Source: a virus
Length of the DNA: 48,631 bases
Strand: one strand, 5' to 3'
Virus record (IMG/VR): IMGVR_UViG_3300032116_000324
Span: 1 to 48,631 of that record
Part shown: positions 2 to 36,812 of the stretch, one piece after another
Position numbering within the stretch: the stretch's first letter is position 1
Layout of the letters: every line of letters starts with the position of its first letter
Program-made: the position numbers and the translations under genes
Notes under the pieces: generated by a model
What the model was told of the DNA's origin: nothing
Databases searched by the model: none
The model's input: the letters and a program-made list of their open reading frames with translations, nothing else

Positions 2-571
2 CCAACTGTAACTTCAACTCCGATTTGTGATCAATTATTAACGAATGAAAATGATGACAATATACTATATGAAAATGGTGATTTCTTATCATTAGAACAG
101 GACTTCTGCCCGAGTCAAACCCCTACTAATACACCAACAAACACACCAACTCCAACTAATACCCCTACTGAAACAGAAACAAGCACACCTACACCTACTG
201 AAACAGAAACAAGCACACCTACACCTACTGAAACAGAAACAAGCACACCTACACCTACTGAAACACCAACTCAAACTCCAAGTGAAACACCTACCGAAAC
301 TCCAACCCCAACTAACACAGAGACACCAACTGAAACTCCGACCCCAACTAACACAGAGACACCAACTGAAACTCCAACTAACACTCCAACTCCAACCCAA
401 ACAGAATCTAATTTACCATTAGAGACACCAACACCAACCGCAACAAGTTCTGAAACACCTACTGAAACACCAACACCAACTCCAACTCCAACTGACGCGA
501 ATGAAAATATGACAGCCGAAAATGGAGATACAATAACCGCTCAAAATGACGATCCAATTATTTTTGATTAA
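2..571 (+). CDS. Pro-Thr-rich tail fibre/adhesin protein, 3' part
   Basis: The frame is open from base 2 to TAA at 569-571, so the start lies left of the window. What is visible is a short acidic segment with two Cys (PICDQLL and QDFCPSQ), then about 125 residues of [11 protein letters not shown] low complexity, then an acidic tail ending DDPIIFD. The Thr-Pro part looks like an extended, mucin-like stalk. The tail has the same pattern (ENGD, then [11 protein letters not shown]) as the ends of the other Pro-Thr proteins here, a short beta-strand repeat. No enzymatic motif is seen. It is probably a virion surface fibre, judged by composition and by neighbouring fibre genes. Low complexity prevents a finer call. 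Confidence 0.7.
181..270 (+). repeat. 30-bp tandem repeat in Pro-Thr coding DNA
   Basis: Three consecutive 30-base units begin at 181, 211 and 241. The first two are identical and the third diverges in its last bases. Each unit encodes ten residues of the type [10 protein letters not shown], so copy-number change keeps the frame. Confidence 0.9.
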
Positions 572-1332: not shown

Positions 1333-3669
1333 GTTATCTCCGCCTTTTTACAAATATCAAGCATAGTTGGAACCCCCCCATTTCAGGTTTACGTTTGTGA
1401 TGTCACTGGTTCATATTGTGAATTAGTTGATACAATTACGGGGTCCGTTCCTCCATCGGTTTTGATTCAATTACCGAGCTTCTTTGACCTTGCTCCCGCA
1501 GTATTGGTAAAAATAGTCGATGCAAATAACTGTGAAAATTATGAGATAAGACCTTGTCAAACAACTCAAACCCCAACTCCCACCCCTACGGTTACACCAA
1601 CTAACACTCAAACACCGACAAAAACTCCTACTCAAACACCAACAGTTACGCCAACAAACACTCAAACTCAAACGCCAACTAACACTGAAACCTCAACTAA
1701 CACACCAACACAAACAAATACTTCCACCCAAACACCTACAAGTACTGAAACACCTACTAATACACCAACACAAACAAATACTTCCACCGAAACACCTACA
1801 AGTACTGAAACACCTACTAACACACCAACTAGCACTACAACTCCAACAAGTACGGAAACACCAACACCAACTAATACTGAAACTTCAACTGAAACACCTA
1901 CCGAAACTCCAACCCCAACTAACACAGAGACACCTACACCTACAAACACGGAAACAACAACACCAACGAATACGGAGACACCTTCAAACACCCCAACTCA
2001 AACACCAACCTCAACACCTCCTCCGGCAATATGCTTTACAATATCTGATGAGTTCTCAAGTTGGTCTTGCACAATTTCACCATCCGGATATCATAATACA
2101 AAAGTTTACTACGCGGTATATGGATCTGATTGCACAACTGTCATAGGTTATGTCTATTGGTCTATAACTAACGATAGATGGGAAACTTCTAATGTCTTGG
2201 ATGGAACGGTATATGGATACTTGGATAATGCGGGTGATGATTATCCAATTAATGGTCAATTCTTCTTCTGGGTTCCTGTGAGTGGTGATTATGAAATAAA
2301 TGCATCTATTGAAGGAATTTGTCCTACACAAACTCCAACACCAACAAATACGACAACTAATACTTCAACACCAACAAATACGGCAACTAACACTCCAAGT
2401 AGTGTAACTCCAACACCGACACCTACAAATACTCAAACACCAACTGAAACTCCAACTCTAAATACCTGTCTGATCCAATCATGTTGTGAACCAACAGACC
2501 TCAGAACGGCATATGTTAGTATCCCTGACGCAATTGTTGGTAGAACCGGTCTATTGGGCGGATTCTGTTTCCAAATCCTTCAAGTTGGTATTTCAGGAAC
2601 TCCGAGCAATATTATGACACAATTCTATGATAATTGTTTAGATTGTGAAACCGTTAATCCTTGCCCAACTCCAACACCAACAAGAACTCCGACTAGAACA
2701 CCAAGTCAGACACCAACTCAAGCAACACCAACTCCAACATCAAGTAATACTCCAACTTTAGCGACACCTACACCAACACCTTCACATACTCCAACAAATC
2801 AAACACCAACCGTCACACCAACAAATAGTCCATCCTATTTGAATTGCGTTGCCGAATATTGTTGTGATGTTACAGATCAGGAAATCTTGAAGGTAAGAAG
2901 TGATCTTGCAATTATTGGAAATACAGTTGTATTCAATAACAAATGTTATAGAATTATTCAAAACAATCTTGTTATTGCGTTTGATATTATAAATTCCGCT
3001 TATAGTAGTTGCGCAACATGTTTAGTTGATTACGGATGTCCTACTTCAACTCCAACTCCAACTAACACAAGAACACCATCAAATACTCCTTCCAATACAC
3101 CAAGTGGTGTGACTCCGACTCCAACTCCAACTAACACACCAAGTAGTGTAACACCAACTCCAACACCAACAAACACCGCAAGTAATACACAAACACCATC
3201 CAATACCGCAACGAACACACAAACTCCATCAAATACTCCGACAAATACTCAAACACCAACTAACACAAGAACAAATACCCCAACACCTTCCAATACTCCA
3301 TCTAATACTGCAACTCCGACAGAGACACCAACTAATACTCCAACCAACACACAAACACCAACTAATACTCCAACCAACACACAAACACCATCTAACACTC
3401 CTACTAATACCCAAACCTCAAGCGAAACTCCAACAAATACACCAACTAATACTGAAACTCCAACCAATACTCCTACTAACACAACCACATCTACCGAAAC
3501 TCCGACTTCTACTCAAACTCCAACAGAAACACCAACTAACACTCCAACCAACACAGAAACTCCGACTCAAACTCCAACACCTACACCAACAACATTAGAG
3601 GAAGGTTTTTTACAACAGGAAAATCTATTCTATATCCTCCAAGAGGACCAGAATAATATCATAATATAA
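1333..3669 (+). CDS. Long Pro-Thr mucin-like fibre protein with Cys-rich domains
   Basis: The frame is open from 1333 (after TAA at 1330-1332) to TAA at 3667-3669, but no ATG, GTG or TTG occurs before TTG 1462. Residues encoded at about 1363-1550 ([19 protein letters not shown] and on) look like an intact Ig-like domain that TTG 1462 would cut in half, so the true start is probably upstream and non-canonical or damaged. After this come four globular parts and Thr-Pro linkers: linker (about 1560-2015), a domain (2025-2325), linker, a Cys-rich domain (2455-2665), linker, a second related Cys-rich domain (2830-3040), and a long linker to 3595. The C-terminal tail is hydrophobic and acidic ([16 protein letters not shown]). 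It is probably a surface adhesin or fibre, and the Thr-rich linkers are candidate glycosylation substrates. Confidence 0.65.
1681..1830 (+). repeat. 60-bp imperfect tandem repeat
   Basis: Units begin at 1681 and 1741, with a partial third unit at 1801. The run of about 40 bases around ACACAAACAAATACTTCC is shared by the first two. Each unit encodes 20 Thr-Pro-rich residues, in frame. Confidence 0.85.
3331..3390 (+). repeat. Perfect 30-bp direct repeat
   Basis: The 30 bases at 3331-3360 recur exactly at 3361-3390 and encode [10 protein letters not shown] twice. This points to recent slippage or duplication in the Pro-Thr stalk, or to a region prone to assembly collapse. Confidence 0.9.
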
Positions 3670-12050: not shown

Positions 12051-13319
12051 ATGAAAATCTTTATTCAAATCGCATCTTACAGAGATCCCGAATTAGTTAA
12101 AACAGTTAAAGATTGTATCGCAAATGCAAAAAGACCTGAGAATTTAGTTTTCTCAATCGCAAGACAATTTCATCCCGACGATAAGTTTGATGACTTATCG
12201 GAATATAAAGACGATCCAAGATTCAGAATTTTGGATATTCCACATCAAGAATCTCAAGGTGTTTGTTGGGCAAGAAATCTAACCCAACAGTTATATCAAA
12301 ATGAGGAATATACAATGCAGATTGATTCCCATATGAGATTTGAAAAAGATTGGGATGACACTTTAATTGGAATGATTAAACAATTAAAAAAGAAAGGTCA
12401 TAAGAAACCATTACTAACCGGATATGTTTCATCATTCAACCCTGAAAATGACCCGGCAGGAAGAGTAAGAGATCCATGGAGAATGGTGTTTGATAGATTT
12501 ATTCCTGAAGGAGCAATATTCTTCCTACCTGAAACAATCCCGGGTTGGCAAGAACTTACAGAACCTATTACCGCCCGTTTTTATTCCGCCCACTTCTGCT
12601 TTACTATTGGTAAGTTCGCCAAAGAAGTTCAACATGATCCCGAATATTATTTTCACGGTGAAGAGATTTCAATTGCTGCAAGAGCATATACTCACGGATA
12701 TGATTTATTCCACCCTCATAAAGTTGTTATTTGGCACGAATACACAAGAAAAGGTAGAACAAAACAATGGGATGATGATAGAACTTGGGGTGAGAAGAAT
12801 AAAAAATCTCATCTTAAAAATAGAAGATTATTCAGTATGGATGGTGAAGTATTTAACCCTGACGATTTTGGAAAATATGGATTCGGGAAGGTTAGAACTT
12901 TAAGAGATTATGAAAAGTATTCCGGTATTTTGTTTAGTGAAAGAGCAGTTCAACAATACACATTAGATAAAAAATATCCACCAAATCCATATGATTTTGA
13001 AAACGAAGAAGAGTGGAAAAAAAGTTTTGCAAAAATTTTCAAACATTGTATTGATATCGGATATTCTCAAGTTCCTGAAAAAGATTATGATTTTTGGGCA
13101 GTTGCATTCCATTCAAGTGATGATGAAACAATATTCAGGAAAGATGCCGATAAAAATGAAATTAATAGGATGATGAATGATCCTGATAGATATTGTAAAG
13201 TATGGAGAGAGTTCCAAACATCTCACACACCCGCATATTGGGTTGTTTGGCCCCACTCTGAATCTAAAGGGTGGTGTGATAAAATATCCGGAAGGTTAGA
13301 CCATAATATTGTAAGTTGA
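12051..13319 (+). CDS. GT60-like polypeptide GlcNAc-transferase
   Basis: 422 residues. The first about 240 fit the GT60/PF11397 pattern: IQIASYRDPEL (5-15), ARNLTQQLY, then MQIDSHMRFEKDWD with a DxH metal site (D92-S-H94), FCFTIGKF, EVQHDPEYYFHGEE (acidic E204-E205) and GYDLFHPHKVVIWHEY. Known GT60 members add GlcNAc to hydroxyproline of Dictyostelium Skp1 or to Thr of Trypanosoma cruzi mucins. The C-terminal 170 residues are unassigned. It is the first gene of a tight glycan operon lying between Thr/Pro-rich fibre genes. Acting on these fibres is an inference; a host or other glycan substrate is also possible. Confidence 0.75.
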   Translation: MKIFIQIASYRDPELVKTVKDCIANAKRPENLVFSIARQFHPDDKFDDLSEYKDDPRFRILDIPHQESQGVCWARNLTQQLYQNEEYTMQIDSHMRFEKDWDDTLIGMIKQLKKKGHKKPLLTGYVSSFNPENDPAGRVRDPWRMVFDRFIPEGAIFFLPETIPGWQELTEPITARFYSAHFCFTIGKFAKEVQHDPEYYFHGEEISIAARAYTHGYDLFHPHKVVIWHEYTRKGRTKQWDDDRTWGEKNKKSHLKNRRLFSMDGEVFNPDDFGKYGFGKVRTLRDYEKYSGILFSERAVQQYTLDKKYPPNPYDFENEEEWKKSFAKIFKHCIDIGYSQVPEKDYDFWAVAFHSSDDETIFRKDADKNEINRMMNDPDRYCKVWREFQTSHTPAYWVVWPHSESKGWCDKISGRLDHNIVS

Positions 13320-13320
13320 T

Positions 13321-14208
13321 ATGAAGGCAATTATACAGCATAATTTTACTTCAGGTCTCGGAGATTTTGTCTCAGACGTTTCACATTATATGACCATTCT
13401 TAATGGGGCGAAGAAAATAGGATATGAAATACATTTAAAAATATCATTAAGATCAAACAAATATGTTAGAACTCCTTTCTTTAAAATTTTATTTGATGAA
13501 GAGACCATAAATTTTTTTGATTCTATATCTGAAACAAATAACACGCATTATGAATTGGAAATAGATGGTTGTAACTATTATGGATCAAACCATCATCCTC
13601 AAAAACCGGGTCAACATCATTTTGATATTTTTTTTGATCAAATACCGAACAATTTTCAATTCAGTATTTTTGATGCTCAAAGAATTCACTTAGAAAATAA
13701 AATCCCAAGCGTTTTACCAAAACCCCACGAATCAATACTTGAAAAAGTAAATTTATTTTGGGATAAAAATCCCAAAGACTATAATTTTTTACATATTAGA
13801 ACTTCAGACATTATAGATGGTAACAATGATAGATATGACAGAATAATAAATAATATAAGAAATTACATTAAAGAAACTAATGAATATTACCACTTAGGCA
13901 CCAACAACAACTATATTTATAAAATTTTGAAAGAAGAACCAAATGTTTTTACTTATGAATTTGATAATTATGACGTTGTTAATAATGACATGAATGCTTT
14001 TACAAATGGTTTGTATTATGGTAATTTAGATGATAGTATATTAGAACATAGGTTAAAGAATATTTTTGCAGAAATGGTTTCTATTGGAAAGTCAAAAAAA
14101 ATAATTTTTGCTTATGACATATCTTGGATTTCCAATTTCTTATTTTACCCATTATCTGTATCTAATAATAAAATAGAATTAATTAATAAAAACGGATGGG
14201 TAGTATAA
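13321..14208 (+). CDS. Putative GT-B glycosyltransferase (fucosyltransferase-like)
   Basis: 295 residues. The N-terminus (QHNFTSGLGDFVSDVSHYM) fits the donor-loop start of GT-B enzymes. FLHIRTSDIIDG (about 156-167) resembles the 'HiRrgD' motif of O-fucosyltransferase/NodZ-type enzymes. A later segment (YYHLGTNNNYIYKIL) resembles their 'TDn' strand, and KKIIFAYDISWISNF their final 'S.S' strand. The family assignment is tentative. It starts 1 base after the GT60-like stop, and its 3' end overlaps the next gene by 13 bases, so translation is probably coupled within the glycan operon. Confidence 0.5.
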   Translation: MKAIIQHNFTSGLGDFVSDVSHYMTILNGAKKIGYEIHLKISLRSNKYVRTPFFKILFDEETINFFDSISETNNTHYELEIDGCNYYGSNHHPQKPGQHHFDIFFDQIPNNFQFSIFDAQRIHLENKIPSVLPKPHESILEKVNLFWDKNPKDYNFLHIRTSDIIDGNNDRYDRIINNIRNYIKETNEYYHLGTNNNYIYKILKEEPNVFTYEFDNYDVVNNDMNAFTNGLYYGNLDDSILEHRLKNIFAEMVSIGKSKKIIFAYDISWISNFLFYPLSVSNNKIELINKNGWVV

Positions 14209-15137
14209 TTATACGTACACCTCAAAACGAGGCTTCATCAAGGTATAGATATTATAATATTTTTTTCAGTAATTTTATTTCATATCTGAAAGAAAAATTT
14301 GATGTAGAAGAAGATACATATTTTGAATACGCCAACATAAGATCTTATCCTGTAACTTTATTGAATAATGATAGTCGTTCGGATCTTTTAGAATGTGAAA
14401 TGATTATTGAAAATAAAGAAACAAAAGAGTTTGTTGTCTTATCCGTTTCAGATTCCCTTACAGGAGCAATTTTAAATCATCAATCTAACCCACTATGTAA
14501 AAAAATACTAGTTGCTCAATTTGATGAACAAAACATAAAGAATCATTTGAGGGAACCTCAAAACTTTTACAAATACAGACCTTGGATCTATTTTCCATCC
14601 AATGAATTTGATTTAGATTCAAAATATCAAAAAAGAATCTCTTTATCAGAATTGACTGATAAATTTTGTTTTTGGGGGACCTCAATTGAGGATAGGAAAA
14701 TTTTGAGTAACTTCAATGAAGAATATTTCAGTGGTGGATTACCAATTGGTGATTTTAATGGGTACTCTGAAAAATTGATTCAATTCAAGGTGGCATTATC
14801 TATAGCAGGTAGAGCCGAGTTTTGTTACAGAGATGTAGAAAATTTCGGGATGGGTATTCCAATTATTAGATTTGAATATAAAAATAAAATGTATAATCAT
14901 CTGATACCTAATTTTCATTATGTGTCGGTTAATAGACCGGAGGATTTATATTATGACAGATTGGGAAATAAAGAACATGCGGAAATGATTGAAAATAGAT
15001 TCAGAGAGGTAAAAGACGATAAAGAATTTTTGGATTATATTTCAAGAAACGCAAGAAAGTATTATGAAGATTATCTATCACCAAAAGGTAGTGTAGAATT
15101 CACATATAAAATATTAGATTTAGAAACTTGGATTTAG
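14196..15137 (+). CDS. Putative glycosyltransferase
   Basis: 313 residues. The C-terminal half has IAGRAEFCYRDVENFGMGIP at about 207, then IIRFEYKN and PNFHYVSVNRPEDL. This resembles the nucleotide-sugar end of GT-B enzymes of the GT90/exostosin kind ('G.G..fcyRdiE.ma.giPll..'). The N-terminal half (RTPQNEASSRYRYYNIFF) is not assigned. The start ATG at 14196 overlaps the preceding gene by 13 bases, and the next gene begins 1 base after the stop. Membership of the glycan operon supports the call; the family is uncertain. Confidence 0.45.
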   Translation: MGSIIIRTPQNEASSRYRYYNIFFSNFISYLKEKFDVEEDTYFEYANIRSYPVTLLNNDSRSDLLECEMIIENKETKEFVVLSVSDSLTGAILNHQSNPLCKKILVAQFDEQNIKNHLREPQNFYKYRPWIYFPSNEFDLDSKYQKRISLSELTDKFCFWGTSIEDRKILSNFNEEYFSGGLPIGDFNGYSEKLIQFKVALSIAGRAEFCYRDVENFGMGIPIIRFEYKNKMYNHLIPNFHYVSVNRPEDLYYDRLGNKEHAEMIENRFREVKDDKEFLDYISRNARKYYEDYLSPKGSVEFTYKILDLETWI

Positions 15138-15138
15138 A

Positions 15139-15777
15139 ATGAAAAAAATTATTTCCTTTTGTTTATATGGATCTGACAATAGATATTGTAATGGAATCAT
15201 TTGTAACTTAGAACTTGCAAAAATTATTTATCCTGATTGGGTATGTAGGGTTTATTATGGAAGATCAGTTCCTGAATTAGTCGTGGAGAAAATGAAAACT
15301 TATGATAACTGCGAATTAGTTTTGATGGAAGAAGGCCCAGACAAACTTTTTCCCATGATTTGGAGATTTTTACCTATAGATGATGAAGATGTTGAAGTTA
15401 TGATATCAAGGGATGCGGATGCTAGATTATCTTATAGAGAAAAAAAATGTGTTGATATATTTTTAGAATCTCCTTATCTATTACATTCAATAAGAGACAA
15501 CCCAAGTCACCCCGATATTATGGGTGGTATGTGGGGTATGAAAAAAAACGACAGGGTAAACATGAAAGAATTATCTGAAGGCTGGAATGGAATTAAGTAT
15601 GATTTTGATCAACAATTTTTAAGATCTAAAGTTGCTCCATTATTTTCTGATTCATATCTGATTCATTGTTCAAATTATAGAAATACCTTCCCTGTTGAAA
15701 AAGAAAATGAATTTTTTGTTGGTGGGTGGTGGCCGGCAGACAATTATGGTAAACCAAATAACCACATATTTTTTTAA
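15139..15777 (+). CDS. Putative GT-A glycosyltransferase
   Basis: 212 residues. Start FCLYGSDNRYCNGIICNLEL, then YPDWVCRVYYG, then a DxD-type metal site in ISRDADARLSYRE (R91-D92-A93-D94), then IMGGMWGMK. This is the layout of small nucleotide-sugar transferases found in capsule/LPS clusters and large DNA viruses. The acceptor cannot be read from the sequence. It sits in the middle of the glycan operon, 1 base after the previous stop and 8 before the next start. Confidence 0.6.
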   Translation: MKKIISFCLYGSDNRYCNGIICNLELAKIIYPDWVCRVYYGRSVPELVVEKMKTYDNCELVLMEEGPDKLFPMIWRFLPIDDEDVEVMISRDADARLSYREKKCVDIFLESPYLLHSIRDNPSHPDIMGGMWGMKKNDRVNMKELSEGWNGIKYDFDQQFLRSKVAPLFSDSYLIHCSNYRNTFPVEKENEFFVGGWWPADNYGKPNNHIFF

Positions 15778-15785
15778 TTAATATT

Positions 15786-16643
15786 ATGAGTAACAAAAAA
15801 ACTTTATTTGTCACCTGTTTTTATAATGGTCTTGACAATACTAAATTGGGGGGAAGAGTTGGTAGATTGTGGCATTATTTTCATGGTCTTAAAACAATTA
15901 TTAGTATGGGATCTGACGTTGTTGTTTATACGTCTGAAAATGATAGACAACATTTAGAATCGGCAATAAACCAAAGTATGTATCCTGAAAATGTTAAGAT
16001 AGTAAATTATGATTTATATTCACACCCTTATCATGAATATTTTCAAAAATGTTTAAACGGAACTAAATATGATCGTTGTTATGAGGTGATGCACGGAAAA
16101 CCAATGTGGATGTCCAACCATTTAGATGACGGTTACGATTATGTATATTGGATTGATTGTGGGTTATCACATGGCGGACTTTTCCCAAATAGATATAGAA
16201 CCGGAACTGGTTTTGAATCTTTTTTCACATGTAATTTGTTCTCACCAAAATTGGTGGAAAATTTAAATAAAATAGAAGATAAATTTGTCATTTTATATGG
16301 AGATCAAACATATCATTTGTTTGAAGCGGCACCAAACGGATTATTTTTCAAAGAATTTCCGAGAGATGAAAACTGTCATATCGTGGGTGGAATGTTCGGA
16401 GGTCCTGTAAACAGTGTTAAAAAGTTTTGTCAAGATTATGAAAATTTGATGAAAGAGATGGTGGAGTTGAATTGTTTTGAAAGAGAAGAACACTTAATGA
16501 CAGTCCTTTATTTCAGAGATAAAAACATGTATCATCCATTAAAGTTTACAACATGGCATCACGAAGAAGTTGATCTTGGTATTTGTTGTAATCACCCTAA
16601 TGATGTTTACTTTTATAGAATTTTTGAAGATTTAAATAAATAA
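15786..16643 (+). CDS. HtrL/YibB-like glycosyltransferase
   Basis: 285 residues. The pattern follows the HtrL_YibB (PF09612) type: a start with LFVTCFYNG, VVVYTSENDR, then VYWIDCGLSHGG (W122-I-D124), an acidic GT-A metal site, and later HIVGGMFGGP. A homologous domain forms the middle of the fusion protein encoded next (FWIDAGL ... GGFFGGP), so the operon holds two versions of this enzyme. It probably adds a sugar to a surface glycan; donor and acceptor are unknown. Confidence 0.65.
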   Translation: MSNKKTLFVTCFYNGLDNTKLGGRVGRLWHYFHGLKTIISMGSDVVVYTSENDRQHLESAINQSMYPENVKIVNYDLYSHPYHEYFQKCLNGTKYDRCYEVMHGKPMWMSNHLDDGYDYVYWIDCGLSHGGLFPNRYRTGTGFESFFTCNLFSPKLVENLNKIEDKFVILYGDQTYHLFEAAPNGLFFKEFPRDENCHIVGGMFGGPVNSVKKFCQDYENLMKEMVELNCFEREEHLMTVLYFRDKNMYHPLKFTTWHHEEVDLGICCNHPNDVYFYRIFEDLNK

Positions 16644-16660
16644 AAAAATAACTTTAATTA

Positions 16661-19063
16661 ATGGATAATTTTTTTGACAAGGCATTACACTATTTAGGTA
16701 AAAAACAAAAAGAAACAAACGCATTAAATATTGGTGCCATGGACGGCGTTTTATTTGATGAGATGATTGGGTATACCAATATGTATGGTTATAAGGTTTT
16801 ATATGTTGAACCAATTCCTTACTTATTTGAAAAACTTAAACAAAATATCAAATCACCCGCATTATTTGAGAACTCAGCAATTTCTGATTATGAGGGTGAA
16901 ATTAAAATGTTGATGATTGACCAATCAGTTATAGATGAGGGTTTAGTCCATTCTTGCTTCTATGGAATGAGTGCTGTATACCCACCTAAAAATGGATTAG
17001 GAAGTGAATTTGATCGCAAAACAGTTGAGGATTATGGTAAACTAACAACAGTACCTTGTATAACTTTTGACACATTGATCAAAAAACATCAATTTTATAA
17101 TTTTGATATTGTTAAAATAGACGCGGAAGGTCATGACTATGTAATATTCAAACAAATTGATTTTGAAAAATATTCTCCGAAAGTAATCAGATTAGAATGG
17201 ATAAATCTTTCCGACGATGATAAAGAATCTATCAAGAAGAAATTTGAAGATAATAATTTTGTGTATGAAATTACAGGTCAGGACATTGTTGGAATTCCTA
17301 AACTTTTTTATAATGAATTGAAAAATCATTATGATCTCAATACTATTAATGAAGTCGCAGAACCTGTTGTAGTTGAACAAACAAAATCAGGTTCTGATAT
17401 TACTTTAGTGACCGGTTTATGGGATATTAAAAGATCCGAACTTTCTCAAGGGTGGAATAGAAATTTTGATCATTACTTATCAAAGTTTGATGAGTTATTG
17501 AAAGTAGACTGTAATATGATCATTTTTGGTGATGAAAATGTTGAAACTTTCGTTAAAACACGTAGAAAAAATGAGAATACCCTTTTTTTGAAAAGGGATT
17601 TGTCTTGGTTCAAAAACAATCAGTTCTATGAAAAAATACAGGAAATAAGACAAACTCCAGAATGGTTTAATCAAGCTGGTTGGTTAAAAGATTCAACTCA
17701 AGCGAAACTTGAGATGTATAACCCGTTGGTTATGTCCAAAATGTTTCTGCTACATGATGCAAAAATATTAGATAAGTTTGATTCAAAATATTTGTTTTGG
17801 ATTGATGCTGGTTTAACGAATACTGTTCATCCCGGATATTTCACACATGATAAAGTTTTGGAAAAATTATCAAAATATATTTCAAAATTTTCTTTTGTAT
17901 GTTTTCCTTATGAGGCCAATAATGAAATTCATGGATTTGAATATCCCAAGCTTAACTCTATTGCCGATGCTAAAGTAAAAAAAGTAGCAAGAGGTGGTTT
18001 TTTTGGTGGACCTAAAGATACAATATCAAAAATAAATTCAATATATTATAATTTATTAATTTCAACGTTAAATGATGGACTAATGGGAACTGAAGAAAGT
18101 ATTTTTTCAATTATGACTTATAAAAATTCTGATTTAATAAATTATTTTGATATAGAAAGTAACGGATTAATGGGTAAATTTTTTGAGGATTTGAAGAATG
18201 ATAGACTTGAAGTTAAATCTGAAACTAATATTTCAAGTGGTAATAACTTGGATATAAATAAAGTAGGTTTATACGTAATAACTTTTAACTCACCCAATCA
18301 ACTTCAAACACTTATAAATTCATTTCGTTTATATGATAATGATTTTTTACTCAAAACAAAAAAATTTCTCCTCAATAACTCTTCTGATGAATCAACAACA
18401 GAAGAATATGAAGAAATTTGTAAAGAATATGGTTTTGAACATATCAAAAAGGATAATTTAGGAATATGTGGAGGTCGCCAATGGATTGCTGAACATTTTG
18501 ATAAAACTGATTTAGATTATTATTTATTCTTTGAAGATGATATGTTCTTCTATCCAAAAGAAGGCGATGTATGTAGAAATGGATTTAATAGGTATGTGGA
18601 AAATTTTTATGATAACACTTTATCAATAATTAAAAAAGAAAATTTTGATTTTCTCAAATTCAATTATACTGAATTTTTTGGGGATAACGGAGTTCAATGG
18701 TCTTGGTATAATGTTCCACAACATGTAAGAGAAGAATTTTGGCCGGAAAAACCTAAATTACCTGTTCAAGGATTAGATCCTAACGCACCAAGAACAAAAT
18801 TTAATAGTATAAAATCTCATAATGGTATACCTTATGCCGATGGAGAAATTTATTATTGTAATTGGCCACAAATTGTAAGTAGAACAGGTAATAAAAAAAT
18901 GTTTTTGGATACCACTTGGGCTCATCCTTATGAACAAACTTGGATGTCTCATATGTATCAACTGACAAAAAAAGGTGAATTAAATCCTGGTATTTTATTA
19001 ATGACTCCAACTGAACATAATAGATTTGATCACTACGACAGAAAATTAAGAAAAGAATCTTAA
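16661..19063 (+). CDS. Three-domain fusion: FkbM methyltransferase, HtrL-like GT, GT2-like GT
   Basis: 800 residues. Residues 20-215 are an FkbM (PF05050) SAM-dependent methyltransferase: ALNIGAMDGV (SAM loop), VLYVEPIP, VPCITFDTL and VKIDAEGHD (151-159). Residues 246-510 are an HtrL/YibB-type transferase (ITLVTGLWDI, FWIDAGL at 379-385, GGFFGGP). Residues 533-800 are a GT2-like domain (VGLYVITFNSP, GICGGRQWIA, FFEDDMFF with EDD at 625-627). It could elongate a glycan and cap it by O-methylation with one polypeptide. It is the last gene of the glycan operon. Key motifs of all three domains look intact. Confidence 0.75.
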   Translation: MDNFFDKALHYLGKKQKETNALNIGAMDGVLFDEMIGYTNMYGYKVLYVEPIPYLFEKLKQNIKSPALFENSAISDYEGEIKMLMIDQSVIDEGLVHSCFYGMSAVYPPKNGLGSEFDRKTVEDYGKLTTVPCITFDTLIKKHQFYNFDIVKIDAEGHDYVIFKQIDFEKYSPKVIRLEWINLSDDDKESIKKKFEDNNFVYEITGQDIVGIPKLFYNELKNHYDLNTINEVAEPVVVEQTKSGSDITLVTGLWDIKRSELSQGWNRNFDHYLSKFDELLKVDCNMIIFGDENVETFVKTRRKNENTLFLKRDLSWFKNNQFYEKIQEIRQTPEWFNQAGWLKDSTQAKLEMYNPLVMSKMFLLHDAKILDKFDSKYLFWIDAGLTNTVHPGYFTHDKVLEKLSKYISKFSFVCFPYEANNEIHGFEYPKLNSIADAKVKKVARGGFFGGPKDTISKINSIYYNLLISTLNDGLMGTEESIFSIMTYKNSDLINYFDIESNGLMGKFFEDLKNDRLEVKSETNISSGNNLDINKVGLYVITFNSPNQLQTLINSFRLYDNDFLLKTKKFLLNNSSDESTTEEYEEICKEYGFEHIKKDNLGICGGRQWIAEHFDKTDLDYYLFFEDDMFFYPKEGDVCRNGFNRYVENFYDNTLSIIKKENFDFLKFNYTEFFGDNGVQWSWYNVPQHVREEFWPEKPKLPVQGLDPNAPRTKFNSIKSHNGIPYADGEIYYCNWPQIVSRTGNKKMFLDTTWAHPYEQTWMSHMYQLTKKGELNPGILLMTPTEHNRFDHYDRKLRKES

Positions 19064-19089: not shown

Positions 19090-20154
19090 ATGGAGTTTTT
19101 TATTAATAAAAATGCCACACTCCCTTTGCTGAAAATGCAAATAGTGAAGGATGGGAGAAGTGACTACAATGAATTTATGAGTTTGATTGAAAAGGCATCC
19201 ATTTCCTTTTCAATGATTGATGTAGAAACAGGATTACCAAGAATAACTTCTAAAACAGGAGGATTTGTTTCCAAAACTTTTATTGATCCCGACACTCCAC
19301 CTGAATATTACATATTTTATAAATTTACTAAAAGAGATACATCTAAAGTTGGTAGATATGAAGGTCAGTTCATGTTAAAAACTGATCAAGGAACTTTAAT
19401 TGTTCCGATAAGAGAAAAACTTTACATAAATGTAACGGATAGTTTTATTTCTGACGAGATTTGTTGTGACGATCAAAGTTATCTTCAACCTTGTCCCCCA
19501 TCTACACCATGCCCCGTGTGTCCAAGTCAAACACCAATACCTTCACCATCTGTTACACCAACACTAACAACAACTTCAACACCAACTCCTTCTGTAACTC
19601 CGGGAGATCTAAATGTTAATTTGATTGTTGAGGTAATGTCAGGATCTGTCATTTGTAACTACAAATTGATATTGAGTAGACCTTTAGACCAAACGGTTAG
19701 TTTGGGAACAATAGTTCAATTAGGATTATTATCGGGGGGAACCTATGATACTCCCGGAATAACTATTTTCGTTCCGGCTGGAAGTTTATCAGGTGAAACT
19801 ACTCTATTCTTGAATGATTTGGAATATGGTGATCTATCTGCAGAGTCAACTTTAATCGTAACTCAACTATCCCCATCAGGTTATTCTTATGAAGTGTTTG
19901 GACAGGTTATATTTCAGTTTCCTCTTCCAACTCCAACACCAACAAATACTTCAACACCTACCCCGACTTTAACTTCTTCTGAAACTCCTACAACAACAAA
20001 TACTTCAACACCTACCCCGACTTTAACTTCTTCTGAAACTCCTACACCGACTCCTACACCGACCCCTGAGGATAATCCGATAGATCCAATAATAACCGAC
20101 ACAGATGAATATATTTCAGTAGGTGATGGGTTTTATTTAAGATACATTGAATAA
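19090..20154 (+). CDS. Fibre protein: baseplate-anchor domain plus Pro-Thr linkers
   Basis: 354 residues. Residues 1-120 (NATLPLLKMQIVKDGRSDYN, FSMIDVETG, YIFYKFTKRDTSKVGRYEG, LIVPIREKLYINV) form a conserved phage domain resembling upper-baseplate (BppU-type) anchors. A Cys-rich hinge (EICCDD, PCPPSTPCPVCPS) and a Thr-Pro linker follow. Then comes a beta domain (about 170-275), a second Thr-Pro linker with an 18-residue tandem duplication, and an acidic tail (DEYISVGDGFYLRYIE). It probably attaches a mucin-like stalk to the baseplate. It directly follows the glycan operon. Confidence 0.6.
   Translation: MEFFINKNATLPLLKMQIVKDGRSDYNEFMSLIEKASISFSMIDVETGLPRITSKTGGFVSKTFIDPDTPPEYYIFYKFTKRDTSKVGRYEGQFMLKTDQGTLIVPIREKLYINVTDSFISDEICCDDQSYLQPCPPSTPCPVCPSQTPIPSPSVTPTLTTTSTPTPSVTPGDLNVNLIVEVMSGSVICNYKLILSRPLDQTVSLGTIVQLGLLSGGTYDTPGITIFVPAGSLSGETTLFLNDLEYGDLSAESTLIVTQLSPSGYSYEVFGQVIFQFPLPTPTPTNTSTPTPTLTSSETPTTTNTSTPTPTLTSSETPTPTPTPTPEDNPIDPIITDTDEYISVGDGFYLRYIE
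19942..20049 (+). repeat. 54-bp tandem duplication
   Basis: Two copies (19942-19995 and 19996-20049) are identical for about the first 50 bases and encode 18 residues each of Thr-Ser-Pro linker. The near-identity indicates a recent in-frame duplication. Confidence 0.9.
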
Positions 20155-27421: not shown

Positions 27422-29032
27422 CTATAAATATTGAGAACAATCAAGTAATTCAATACTTGAGTCCCCAGTTAGTTCTTTTATTATATCCTTCTCTTTAAAT
27501 GTTGCAGTGCTTGACGTATGAGATATCAAATTATTATCTATTACGTAGACTTTCATACTTGCAACATTAACAAACACAAAAACATCAACAGAATATTTCT
27601 TCATCAAAGATATTCCATCAATTTTTATTAATTTTTCATCCCCTGAGATGTATGTTAAAGATTTATAAGGTTTTATTTGTGCGGTCCATGTTTCTCCGTT
27701 ATCAAGAAAAATGGCGGCGTCAACCCCGGCAAGCATATCTGTTCTCAATCCTCCACCAGCTTTTATTTTACATTCAGCAATGTCCCACATTTTGTTGATA
27801 ATTTTCATAGCCGCATCTTCATTTCTTTTACCGAAACAATCATTTCTTTTTAGTGTCTTTTCTACTTTTTGAAATGTTTTGGAAGTTGCCAAATTGAAGA
27901 TCCTATCTTTTAGTTCAATCATTATATCAAAAAATCTATCCAATTCGACTAAATTATTTTTAACATCATCATTGAATATTATGACAGGTTCTCCACTATT
28001 TTTGAGATAAGTGTTAATATCATTATGTAGAATACAAAAAGCCGAATATGAAGATGTAAGATTATTTAAGAGAGATCTTTCATTTGTTGCAGTATAAACC
28101 CCTTCCATATGTCCTTGAAATAACTCATTATCCGCTTTCCAAGAGCCCGGATATAATATTTTTAGAAGTTTTTTCCATCTGTCAACAAATTTTTGTTTGA
28201 ATGTCCAAACTGAAAGTAAATCTTTATATTGTTGTTGTTGTTCGTGGGAGCAAAAAGACACAGCTTTTTCTAATCCCTCGTTTATAAGAGTTTTCAAATT
28301 TAGTTTTTTTAATAGTGATTGTTCTTGTAATACTGTGTTCGTTTTCATGTCGTATAACTTTTCTACGAATTCCCAATTTACGACACTCCAAAAATTTTTA
28401 ATATATTCATCTCTTTTATTTTGATATTTCAAGTAAAAAGCGTGTTCCCAAAGATCTAACCCCAAAATTGGAAATCCTTTTCTTTTTGATATGTTCATCA
28501 GAGGATTATCCTGATTTGGCGTTGAAACAACACGAAGTTTGCCTCCTTTAGTTAGTATTAACCAAACCCATCCGGAACCAAACCTTTTTTTTGCAATATC
28601 TTCAAATTTTCTTTTGAATTCAGCAAAACTACCGAAATCTTTTTTAATTTTATCAAAAATTTTTTTTGAGGGTTTTTGTTCAGTAGGAGACAACATTTTC
28701 CAAAACAAAGCGTGATTATAAGCTCCTCCCGCATTGTTTCTTATTGTTGTGTTGAATTTAGATATTCTTTTAACAATTTGTTCTAAATCTAAATCACCAT
28801 AATCTCTTTTTTGTAGTGCGTCATTTAACTTGTCTACATAACCCTTGTAGTGTTTGTTATAGTGAAAGTCCATAGTTTTTGCATCTATGAACCTTTTAAG
28901 AGCGGATAAAGAATAGGGTAATTTATCTATTCCTATTTTTTTCATCTCCATTAAGAGATAAGATTTTTCTTCTACCGGACCTTCAGATATTAACTTTTTA
29001 ATTTGTAATATTTTTTCATTGATACTTTGCAT
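27422..29032 (-). CDS. Mn-type superoxide dismutase fused to PD-(D/E)XK-like domain
   Basis: 536 residues. Residues 37-228 are a complete Fe/Mn superoxide dismutase: metal ligands H57 (FHYNKHYKGYV), H107 (NNAGGAYNHALFW), D193 and H197 (GLDLWEHAFYLKY), with gateway residues H61 and Y65. Q174 (NQDNPLM) and the GG before the second ligand are Mn-type signatures. Residues 240-400 are helical and unassigned. Residues 400-470 look like a PD-(D/E)XK nuclease core: GKRNEDA (E405), GVDAAIFLD (D438) and AQIKP (Q452-x-K454). (I/L)xE motifs occur at residue 17 (LISE-G) and at 252 (LINE-G) between the two parts, like T4 prohead-protease sites. It would detoxify superoxide; the nuclease role is inferred. 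Confidence 0.8.
   Translation of the reverse strand: MQSINEKILQIKKLISEGPVEEKSYLLMEMKKIGIDKLPYSLSALKRFIDAKTMDFHYNKHYKGYVDKLNDALQKRDYGDLDLEQIVKRISKFNTTIRNNAGGAYNHALFWKMLSPTEQKPSKKIFDKIKKDFGSFAEFKRKFEDIAKKRFGSGWVWLILTKGGKLRVVSTPNQDNPLMNISKRKGFPILGLDLWEHAFYLKYQNKRDEYIKNFWSVVNWEFVEKLYDMKTNTVLQEQSLLKKLNLKTLINEGLEKAVSFCSHEQQQQYKDLLSVWTFKQKFVDRWKKLLKILYPGSWKADNELFQGHMEGVYTATNERSLLNNLTSSYSAFCILHNDINTYLKNSGEPVIIFNDDVKNNLVELDRFFDIMIELKDRIFNLATSKTFQKVEKTLKRNDCFGKRNEDAAMKIINKMWDIAECKIKAGGGLRTDMLAGVDAAIFLDNGETWTAQIKPYKSLTYISGDEKLIKIDGISLMKKYSVDVFVFVNVASMKVYVIDNNLISHTSSTATFKEKDIIKELTGDSSIELLDCSQYL
27424..27430 (-). promoter_or_regulatory. TATTTAT box (minus strand)
   Basis: ATAAATA on the + strand reads TATTTAT on the coding strand, 14 bases before the start of the neck-like gene. 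It overlaps the last codons of the SOD fusion gene. Confidence 0.4.
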
Positions 29033-33473: not shown

Positions 33474-36400
33474 ATGGCAACAAATAGTAAAGTATTCGTA
33501 TCTCCGGGTGTTTACACTTCTGAAAGGGACTTAAGTTTCGTTTCTCAGAGTGTTGGTGTAACTACTTTGGGCATTGTAGGTGAAGCTTTGAAGGGACCGG
33601 CTTTTGAACCTATATTCATTACAAATTATGATGAGTTTCAAACATATTTCGGAGGAACTTCTCCGGAAAAGTTTGTTAATACTCAAATCCCTAAATATGA
33701 GGCTTCATATATAGCAAAAGCTTATTTACAACAATCCAATCAAATGTTCATGACGAGAGTTTTGGGATTGTCCGGATATGATGCGGGACCTTCTTGGTCT
33801 ATAACAACAATAGCCAACGTAGATAGTTCTACTGTAGGGTTCAATGAAATATGTGTTAAAACTCCCAATTTCACCGCTCAAACTTGTGACATTTCTTGTA
33901 CTGCGGTCACATTACCTTTTATGGTAAATTTCTCAGGATGTAATAACTCCATAGATACAATTGATTTCTTAACAAATTTCCCTAATGAAATTCAAAGTAT
34001 AATTAACAATGAGTATACAAAGTTTGATGGTGGAACTTCTACTTTAGATAGTGATTTGAAAGCTCAATTACAAGGCATTTTCACGACACCTTCAAAGAGT
34101 GCTTCCTCTATCTATTATTTTGGTACCATAGAACATGACGACTATGTAACTCTTTCTTCAGGATTTACAGCAGGAACGAACGTATTGGATGTTTCAAATG
34201 TAGATTCCTTATTGGCTGATTATACGTCACCAAAAAATGATTCATGGTATTATTCTTTATTTGATAATCCAACCGGAGATTCTTATTCAGGATTTTCATT
34301 TTGGACCGCTGTGGGTAGTTTATATGTGTTTCCTAATAACACACCTCATACTACAACAACTACAACCGCGGCTCCTACACCACCAAACCCTTGTGAAGAT
34401 AATCCAACACCTTCAGTCACACCGACGGCCACTTCTACCACACCTCCCGTTTGTTTCTCAGGAACTATGTATGGTGTAATATACTATTATACAGGTACAA
34501 GTTACACAGAATATAATAATGTTGTGATAGCAACTTTGAGATCAAGAGGTATTTCAATTTTTGATCAAGATGACGATGGGCCTAAATACGAAGTTGATGA
34601 TTGTACTAAAGTTACACTTGATTTCACAGGTTCTTATGGTGCTGTTAGAAAGAATCCATTTGCTCCTTTTGGTATCAATGTTATTAATAAAGACAATCAA
34701 TTGTTTACTTTCAAAACTTCAATGGCCTCTTCCGACGCTACTTACCTTCCTAAGGTATTTGGTGTATCCAACTTTGGTAAAGACAGAAAAGAGGTTCCTT
34801 TGATGGTTGAAGAAAGATATGATGTTCTTTTAAGATGGGCATATAATAAAGGATACATTAGAGGTTTAAGACAAGACATAATTGAGTTAGATAGTGCAAG
34901 ATCAGGTAAAATTGATAATATTGCATACTACGCCGAAAAATATCAAAGTCCTGCAAGTCCTTATGTTGTATCTGAACTCAGAGGTAATAAAGTATATAGA
35001 TTATTTAGATTTGTATCAATTTCTGATGGGAATAGTGCAAATGATCAGTTGAAGATTTCTTTAGCTAACATGTCATTTAATAACTTGACGTTTGACGTAA
35101 TCGTTAGAGACTTCTATGATACAGATGCTAATCCGGTTGTATTAGAAAAATTCACTAATTGTTCTATGGACCCGGGTCAGAATAACTATGTAGGTAAAAA
35201 AATTGGTTCCTCAGATGGTGAATTTGCTTTGAATTCTAAATTTATCATGGTTGAACTTAATGTTGAGGCACCTGTTGATTCATTACCTTGTGGATTTGAA
35301 GGATATAATTTTAGATTGTATGATGGTGTAAGATCTCCTTTCCCGATCTATAAAACAAAATATTTCTTCCCAGGTGAAGTAATCTTTAATCCTCCGTTTG
35401 GTTTCCCTTCAGGCACTGATAATCCAGTTTCTTCTGCGGGTGACAATGTTAGAAGAACTTATTTAGGTCTTTCATCTTCTATAGGTTATGATTCTGATTT
35501 TTATCAGTATTTCGGTAAACAAAACATTGGAGATGTTTGTAATCCGGCTTTACAAGATTGGGCTTACAAAACTGCGGGTTTCCATATGGACGAGGGTGCA
35601 TCTGTAATCACAATACCTAAAGGATTCACAACATCAGGCCAACCTGCGTTTGAATGTGGTGTTGCAACTTTCCGTGAAGATCCTGATGATGATCAAAATC
35701 CTTACTACAGAATATTTGCAAGGAAGTTCACTTTGTTTGTAGCTGGAGGTTTTGACGGATGGGATATATATAGAGAATATAGAACAAACTCAGATCAATT
35801 TGTACTTGGTAAATCGGGATATCTCAAAGGAGCTTGTCCGGATGATAGATACCCCAACGCAACCGGAGCGGGTCTATTCAGAAGAATTACTGTTGGTGAT
35901 AACACAGGAGATTGGGCAAATACTGATTATTACGCTTATCTTTTGGGACAACACACTTTCTCTAACCCTGAGGCGGTTAATATAAATGTTTTTGTAACAC
36001 CGGGTATTGACCATGTTAACAATAGTAATTTAGTAGAAGAAGCTATAGACATGATTGAATTCAGTAGAGCTGACTCAATTTACATTACAACAACACCTGA
36101 TTACAATATGTTTGTTCCTACAATTACCGATAATTTGGATCTTATTTATCCACAAGAAGCGGTTGATAATTTGGAAGAAACCGGTATAGATTCAAACTAT
36201 ACGGCTACTTATTATCCTTGGGTTCTAACAAGAGATACTGTTAATAACACTCAAATTTATATCCCGGCAACCGCTGAGGTAACAAGAAATCTAGCATTGA
36301 CTGATAACATTTCATTCCCGTGGTTTGCTTCTGCAGGTTACACAAGAGGTCTTGTTAATTCAATAAAGGCTAGAAAGAAACTTACACAACAAGATAGAGA

Positions 36401-36812
36401 TACTCTTTATCAAGGAAGAATTAACCCAATTGCAACATTCTCTGACGTGGGAACAGTAATTTGGGGTAACAAAACTCTTCAAATTAGAGAATCCGCTCTT
36501 GATCGTATCAATGTTAGAAGATTACTTCTTCAAGCTAGAAAATTAATTTCGGCAGTTTCTGTTAGATTGTTGTTTGAACAGAATGATGAAAGAGTAAGAC
36601 AAGATTTCTTAGATGCTGTTAATCCTATATTAGATGGTATCAGAAGAGATAGAGGTTTATATGATTTCCGTGTCACAGTATCTTCTTCACCTGAAGATTT
36701 AGACAGAAATCAATTAACTGGTAAGATCTACATTAAACCTACCAAAGCTCTTGAATTTATAGATATTGAATTCTTGATTACACCAACAGGTGCGTCATTT
36801 GAAAATATCTAA
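33474..36812 (+). CDS. Tail sheath protein with mucin-like insertion
   Basis: 1112 residues, long beside T4 gp18 (659). The N-terminus VSPGVYTSERDLSFVSQSVG, the core LGIVGEALKGPAFEP and the C-terminal block (RINVRRLLLQARKLISAVS, RRDRGLYDFRVTVS, ALEFIDIEFLITPTG) are standard contractile-sheath features. Residues about 290-325 hold an inserted Thr/Pro string (TTTTTTAAPTPPNPC and PTPSVTPTATSTTPP), presumably exposed on the tail surface, before a short extra domain. It polymerises around the tube and contracts at infection. It has its own TATTTAT box upstream and a strong terminator downstream, which fits very high late expression. Confidence 0.9.
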   Translation: MATNSKVFVSPGVYTSERDLSFVSQSVGVTTLGIVGEALKGPAFEPIFITNYDEFQTYFGGTSPEKFVNTQIPKYEASYIAKAYLQQSNQMFMTRVLGLSGYDAGPSWSITTIANVDSSTVGFNEICVKTPNFTAQTCDISCTAVTLPFMVNFSGCNNSIDTIDFLTNFPNEIQSIINNEYTKFDGGTSTLDSDLKAQLQGIFTTPSKSASSIYYFGTIEHDDYVTLSSGFTAGTNVLDVSNVDSLLADYTSPKNDSWYYSLFDNPTGDSYSGFSFWTAVGSLYVFPNNTPHTTTTTTAAPTPPNPCEDNPTPSVTPTATSTTPPVCFSGTMYGVIYYYTGTSYTEYNNVVIATLRSRGISIFDQDDDGPKYEVDDCTKVTLDFTGSYGAVRKNPFAPFGINVINKDNQLFTFKTSMASSDATYLPKVFGVSNFGKDRKEVPLMVEERYDVLLRWAYNKGYIRGLRQDIIELDSARSGKIDNIAYYAEKYQSPASPYVVSELRGNKVYRLFRFVSISDGNSANDQLKISLANMSFNNLTFDVIVRDFYDTDANPVVLEKFTNCSMDPGQNNYVGKKIGSSDGEFALNSKFIMVELNVEAPVDSLPCGFEGYNFRLYDGVRSPFPIYKTKYFFPGEVIFNPPFGFPSGTDNPVSSAGDNVRRTYLGLSSSIGYDSDFYQYFGKQNIGDVCNPALQDWAYKTAGFHMDEGASVITIPKGFTTSGQPAFECGVATFREDPDDDQNPYYRIFARKFTLFVAGGFDGWDIYREYRTNSDQFVLGKSGYLKGACPDDRYPNATGAGLFRRITVGDNTGDWANTDYYAYLLGQHTFSNPEAVNINVFVTPGIDHVNNSNLVEEAIDMIEFSRADSIYITTTPDYNMFVPTITDNLDLIYPQEAVDNLEETGIDSNYTATYYPWVLTRDTVNNTQIYIPATAEVTRNLALTDNISFPWFASAGYTRGLVNSIKARKKLTQQDRDTLYQGRINPIATFSDVGTVIWGNKTLQIRESALDRINVRRLLLQARKLISAVSVRLLFEQNDERVRQDFLDAVNPILDGIRRDRGLYDFRVTVSSSPEDLDRNQLTGKIYIKPTKALEFIDIEFLITPTGASFENI

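Follow-up and report, generated by a model that had tools for sequence, protein, structure and literature searches.

Few phages are known to have glycosylated virions, and the acceptors involved are largely unexplained. In mycobacteriophages, glycosyltransferases of the phage decorate virion proteins; these glycans are described as being on the C-termini of the capsid and tail tube proteins, with no mention of mucin-like tracts or a GT60 initiator (Freeman et al. 2023, cited in PMC12619734). The Xanthomonas phage XacN1 is reported to have at least two virion glycoproteins, detected by proteomic analysis and not named in the main text, and the chlorovirus PBCV-1 encodes the assembly of the glycan on its virion protein Vp54 (PMC5852040). 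The latter is similar to the system proposed here in that glycan assembly is virus-encoded but differs in that PBCV-1 is an algal virus and the acceptor is a capsid protein. Eukaryotic enzymes of the GT60 family act either in the Golgi (Trypanosoma cruzi) or on hydroxyproline of Skp1 in the cytoplasm, and the peptide used as test acceptor for the T. cruzi enzyme, KPPTTTTTTTTKPP, is a Pro-flanked Thr run (PMC3769586). For the phage described here, we propose virion glycosylation in which a GT60 initiator of the mucin type works together with a variable gene cassette; among the papers searched, none pairs 'phage' with 'GT60'.

The stretch of DNA analyzed here (hereinafter, the window) is a 48.6 kb virus record whose genes include those of a family B DNA polymerase and of a tail sheath and tail tube of the myovirus type. 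The earlier note on this DNA described a tight six-gene operon consisting of five glycosyltransferase-type genes, the first of these of the GT60 type, and a methyltransferase/transferase fusion. The operon is confirmed at 12051-19063 on the plus strand, with intergenic gaps of 1, -13, 1, 8 and 17 bp. A spacer of 26 bp separates it from a seventh gene on the same strand, that of the Thr/Pro-rich protein PT3 (19090-20154). The fusion is identifiable by Pfam profiles as g6 (16661-19063), which combines an FkbM methyltransferase (PF05050) and an HtrL_YibB domain (PF09612) and has a C-terminal part that weakly resembles glycosyltransferases. The count of five glycosyltransferases is plausible but is profile-backed for genes 1 and 6 only, given that genes 2-4 have no Pfam match and gene 5 matches HtrL weakly; the labels 'fucosyl-like' and 'GT-A' on genes 2 and 4 gained no support from profiles. 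Even through homologues, no firm family could be assigned to g2-g5. Judging by its place in the variable cassette, g2 (13321-14208), which has no Pfam or PHROG match, is a possible glycosyltransferase; g3 (14196-15137) and g4 (15139-15777) are cassette genes with relatives in 11 and 12 loci, respectively; and g5 (15786-16643), with relatives in 41 loci, is possibly an HtrL-like glycosyltransferase (PF09612, E 0.019). Elsewhere in the window, on the minus strand (27422-29032), an Fe/Mn superoxide dismutase with both Pfam domains (E to 2e-40) makes up the N-terminal half of a 536-aa protein.

The first gene of the operon (12051-13319; 422 aa) was correctly recognized as GT60-like: its product matches PF11397, the GT60 polypeptide GlcNAc-transferase family, with E 9.9e-70 and 236 bits against a curated cut-off of 21, as well as phrog_24687, 'glycosyltransferase' (565 bits). 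The protein thus shares the Pfam family with the eukaryotic GT60 enzymes well above the cut-off but is of phage and bacterial provenance and has an extra C-terminal beta domain, following a GT-A domain at about residues 1-300, and a partner gene, g6. The residues D92-S93-H94 (DSH, a DxH-type motif) and H229 are invariant in 50 homologues with identity down to 36%. The earlier note suggested modeling this protein against PF11397 structures; sequence searches found no solved GT60 homologue. The AlphaFold (AF2) model built from 50 homologues is confident (mean pLDDT 91.7). When this model is compared with the PDB and the matches are ranked by Z, polypeptide GalNAc-transferases occupy all of the top 29 places (Z 19.3-22.6), ahead of an entry with Z 17.7; about 270 residues are aligned, with rmsd mostly of 3.4-3.8 and identity of 9-14%. 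The nearest solved fold is therefore that of the animal and apicomplexan GT27 enzymes, and GT27 mucin-type initiators bind Mn2+ via a DxH motif. Unlike GT27, the window enzyme belongs to PF11397 by sequence. The full-length protein yields no match to a ricin-type lectin domain among Pfam profiles at E 1. Because the top PDB matches are polypeptide GalNAc-transferases and the DxH motif is invariant, the protein has, as modeled, the fold and motif found in initiators of O-glycosylation at Thr or Ser of polypeptides, and is accordingly the putative initiator that would attach the first sugar to Thr. Enzymes of the GT60 fold could conceivably use other acceptors, too. In one locus (L337, contig G035), an open frame of 820 aa begins with the GT60 domain and goes on to include more transferase-like sequence.

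Close relatives of the GT60 protein are encoded in at least 308 viral stretches, of which 80 loci were read. In their gene order, one or more PT-rich proteins precede GT60, after which come a variable block, g6, the N-terminal domain of PT3 and the DNA polymerase. Matches to g6 and PT3 are present in 75 and 65 of the 80 loci, respectively, and g6 is also found in XacN1, in the cultured Stenotrophomonas phage RAS14 and in Bacteroidota. The GT60-to-g6 interval, in contrast to these constant ends, is highly diverse, with 186 ORFs in 46 loci falling into 51 homology clusters, 26 of which are single ORFs. The Pfam glycosyltransferases in the cassettes of relatives include GT10, GT25, GT34 and a PLOD-type enzyme; the other families are DUF273, FkbM and rhamnosyl O-methyltransferases, UDP-galactopyranose mutase, DegT aminotransferase and carbamoyltransferase. 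With constant ends and swapped middle genes, these cassettes look like a system with a uniform glycan start and a varied outer part. The C-terminal part of g6 shows a weak match (E 9.5e-5) to the beta-glucosyl-HMC-alpha-glucosyltransferase family of phage DNA-glucosyltransferases, which, together with thymidylate-synthase-family genes in 8 of 18 such phage records, could point to glycosylation of hypermodified DNA bases, as in T4. This appears very improbable: the thymidylate-synthase family is missing from many large GT60 contigs and is common in phages anyway, bacterial chromosomes, too, have GT60 and g6 next to PTS-rich proteins, and the GT60 fold matches polypeptide GalNAc-transferases. 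PF00303, considered as a marker of DNA modification, was dropped as non-discriminating.

The candidate substrates of the putative initiator are four window proteins with PT-dense stretches, which jointly contain about 323 Thr, those of an insert in the tail sheath included. All the Thr/Pro-rich proteins reported in the earlier note are real, as is the sheath insert. The first of these (2-571, plus strand; 53% T+P) is represented by its C-terminal part only; the second, a fibre-like protein (1333-3669, plus strand), has its start either at TTG 1462 or at a site upstream of it. The third, PT3, consists of an N-terminal domain that is conserved over 49 sequences and a PT-rich stalk. The top VIA matches of the N-terminal domain are baseplate chains of TP901-1, 80alpha and NF5 (Z 7.8-8.1, rmsd of about 3, about 102 residues aligned), which suggests a baseplate-like domain; immunoglobulin folds score only slightly lower, so the likeness is no more than suggestive. 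The sheath insert (TTTTTTAAPTPP; 34305-34454, plus strand, within the ORF at 33474-36812) spans residues 278-327 and contains 52% T+P, compared with 13% in the remaining sheath. At the same position, the sheaths of relatives (L475-L554) contain a poly-Thr tract in many cases (e.g., KTTTTTTSTTTTTT) and a domain of about 130 aa in others, while further relatives have no insert. These poly-Thr inserts resemble KPPTTTTTTTTKPP, which serves as test acceptor for the T. cruzi enzyme, being likewise Pro-flanked Thr runs (PMC3769586). Contig L003 is identical to the window over GT60 and its neighbors but only 78% identical in the DUF5122 beta-propeller protein (1-984 in L003, 3694-7008 in the window); this drop suggests that the fibre genes recombine or change fast.

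The association between GT60 and PT-rich proteins, whose absence in relatives the earlier note had named beforehand as grounds for rejecting its reading, is pronounced, and the reading withstood this test. A PT-rich ORF, defined as one containing a 40-aa segment with at least 60% T+P, was found within 10 kb of GT60 in 77 of the 80 loci, which are related to one another, versus 1 of 80 random viral loci, which are shorter on average, and 1 of 80 loci selected by a collagen pattern, which is partly palindromic and hence serves only as a mixed control. Two of the three exceptions have PT motifs elsewhere on the contig, and the third is a 31 kb fragment. With the DNA polymerase as bait, GT60 turns out to be a core gene in the clade of the window, so that co-occurrence within this clade is uninformative and other lineages alone count. 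In a set of 20 mostly diverged GT60 contigs (L568 belongs to the window clade, with 75% identity, and the other aligned representatives are 36-51% identical), at least two PT motifs are present in 15, versus 0 of 30 controls (Fisher p 7e-9, uncorrected for relatedness or size); no PT repeats were found in the diverged contigs G158-G161. The cultured phages XacN1, which carries the GT60 ortholog as ORF334, and RAS14 contain 51 and 22 PT motifs, respectively, and none of the reversed pattern.

In the converse search, among contigs picked by PT repeats only, a set that includes larger contigs, PF11397 is present in 14 of 43 (one of these positives, G041, is doubtful), versus 1 of 36 contigs picked by the collagen pattern and none of 26 random ones. 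The PT match of G041 appears to be antisense to a VGVG-repeat gene, so this contig was set aside as a weak PT positive. A VGVG-repeat protein with a Hint/intein-like C-terminus is encoded beside a diverged GT60 in L338 (2230-3558, minus strand), where the antisense reads PTPT. The remaining 29 of the 43 contigs lack GT60; such phages are common, and PT repeats therefore do not need this enzyme. There are few glycosyltransferase genes near the PT ORFs of these contigs, and hence no alternative initiator was identified in their vicinity. Given these phages, and some GT60 loci without PT proteins, it is conceivable that the system performs protein O-glycosylation but mainly on other targets, such as the host surface or folded virion proteins (e.g., the capsid), with the PT repeats being mere flexible stalks. 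We regard this as unlikely in view of the strong association between GT60 and PT proteins, often directly adjacent, across diverged lineages, and of the poly-Thr inserts in the sheath.

Relatives of GT60 were also found in 13 bacterial loci. Strong PF11397 matches are rare in the class that includes Jiulongibacter, being confined to that genome among 395. In Jiulongibacter (L586), Saprospiraceae (L583), a Bacteroidia MAG (L582) and a Gemmatimonadota MAG (L594), a P/T/S-rich, secreted-looking ORF is located within 0.4 kb of GT60; the first three of these also encode g6 (55-63% identity), and L586 additionally encodes a carbamoyltransferase. In the PTS proteins of L583 and L586, we read the N-terminal segment as twin-arginine-like. 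In Trinickia (L590, L593), GT60 is part of a gene cluster for type VI secretion and lies at a distance of 4 kb from VgrG proteins with PTPTPT or PPPTE tails; the VgrG tail of Paraburkholderia is DEEPAAS rather than a PT tail. No PT proteins or repeats were found in L587-L589, L591 and L592, and two further bacterial loci are cut at GT60. Several additional features of the bacterial loci were observed. Low-complexity VgrG tails of one or another of these types are present in L590, L591 and L593; GT60 is located near TssA/ImpA_N of type VI clusters in L589-L593 (Burkholderiales, Neisseriaceae); and a fimbrial adhesin-like protein adjoins GT60 among these loci (checked in L589 and L593). In a Vicingus MAG (L588, 937-3111), HtrL_YibB and GT60 are fused in one ORF.

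Phage glycosyltransferases often modify host surface polysaccharides. The operon might, likewise, alter LPS, capsule or teichoic acid of the host against superinfection, the PT fibres being unrelated neighbors, and the presence among the cassette members of GT25, which carries the Pfam label of LPS biosynthesis, is compatible with such a role. However, the initiating polyprenyl-phosphate sugar-1-phosphate transferase (PF02397) was detected in none of the 18 records, while being found in 9 control genomes, and the GT60 fold is nearest to polypeptide transferases, so a host-polysaccharide system is disfavored; moreover, the association of GT60 with PT proteins recurs in unrelated phages and in bacteria. 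Altogether, we consider this explanation improbable.

The self-glycosylation reading proposed in the earlier note is, in contrast, supported by the family assignment, the initiator fold, the DxH motif, the adjacency to PT proteins in both phages and bacteria, the lack of PF02397 in the 18 records and the virion glycoproteins reported for XacN1 (PMC5852040). We therefore consider it likely that this locus provides the phage with a mucin-type O-glycosylation system of its own, which works on proteins in the cytoplasm, has the tail and fibre proteins of the same phage as its targets and produces a variable outer glycan. With an enzyme built like the initiators of animal and parasite mucin glycans, a swappable set of sugar genes and mucin-like Thr/Pro tail proteins, this large phage probably glycosylates its own particles. 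In the pathway that we infer, from the activity, sugar and acceptor to glycan assembly on the virion and its benefit, the GT60-type enzyme would act in the cytoplasm and, with a UDP-sugar as donor, attach the first HexNAc (probably alpha-GlcNAc) straight to Thr. The acceptor Thr would reside in Pro-flanked or poly-Thr tracts, namely, those of the PT-rich proteins, the PT3 stalk and the sheath insert. The HtrL/GT protein g6, the predicted extender, and the variable cassette genes would then extend and cap the glycan by glycosylation and methylation; in other phages, capping might involve carbamoylation or galactofuranose. A fixed start and finish with swapped middle genes would yield phage-specific outer glycans, a variety to be expected if selection is exerted by recognition of the host surface, by defences that target glycans or by grazers.

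More broadly, these findings might reflect a prokaryotic mucin-type O-glycosylation module, consisting of a GT60 initiator, an HtrL/GT partner and a Pro/Thr-rich substrate, that serves contractile injection machines, i.e., phage tails and type VI spikes, and that, in phages, includes a swappable cassette diversifying the outer glycan of the virion; we give this generalization about an even chance. Across several phage lineages, cultured phages included, a mucin-type initiator, mucin-like candidate acceptors and a variable glycan cassette form one unit. If the proposed function is correct, bacteria would supply enzymes capable of initiating mucin-type glycans on Thr tracts, and phages would vary their surface glycans much as bacteria vary their O-antigens.
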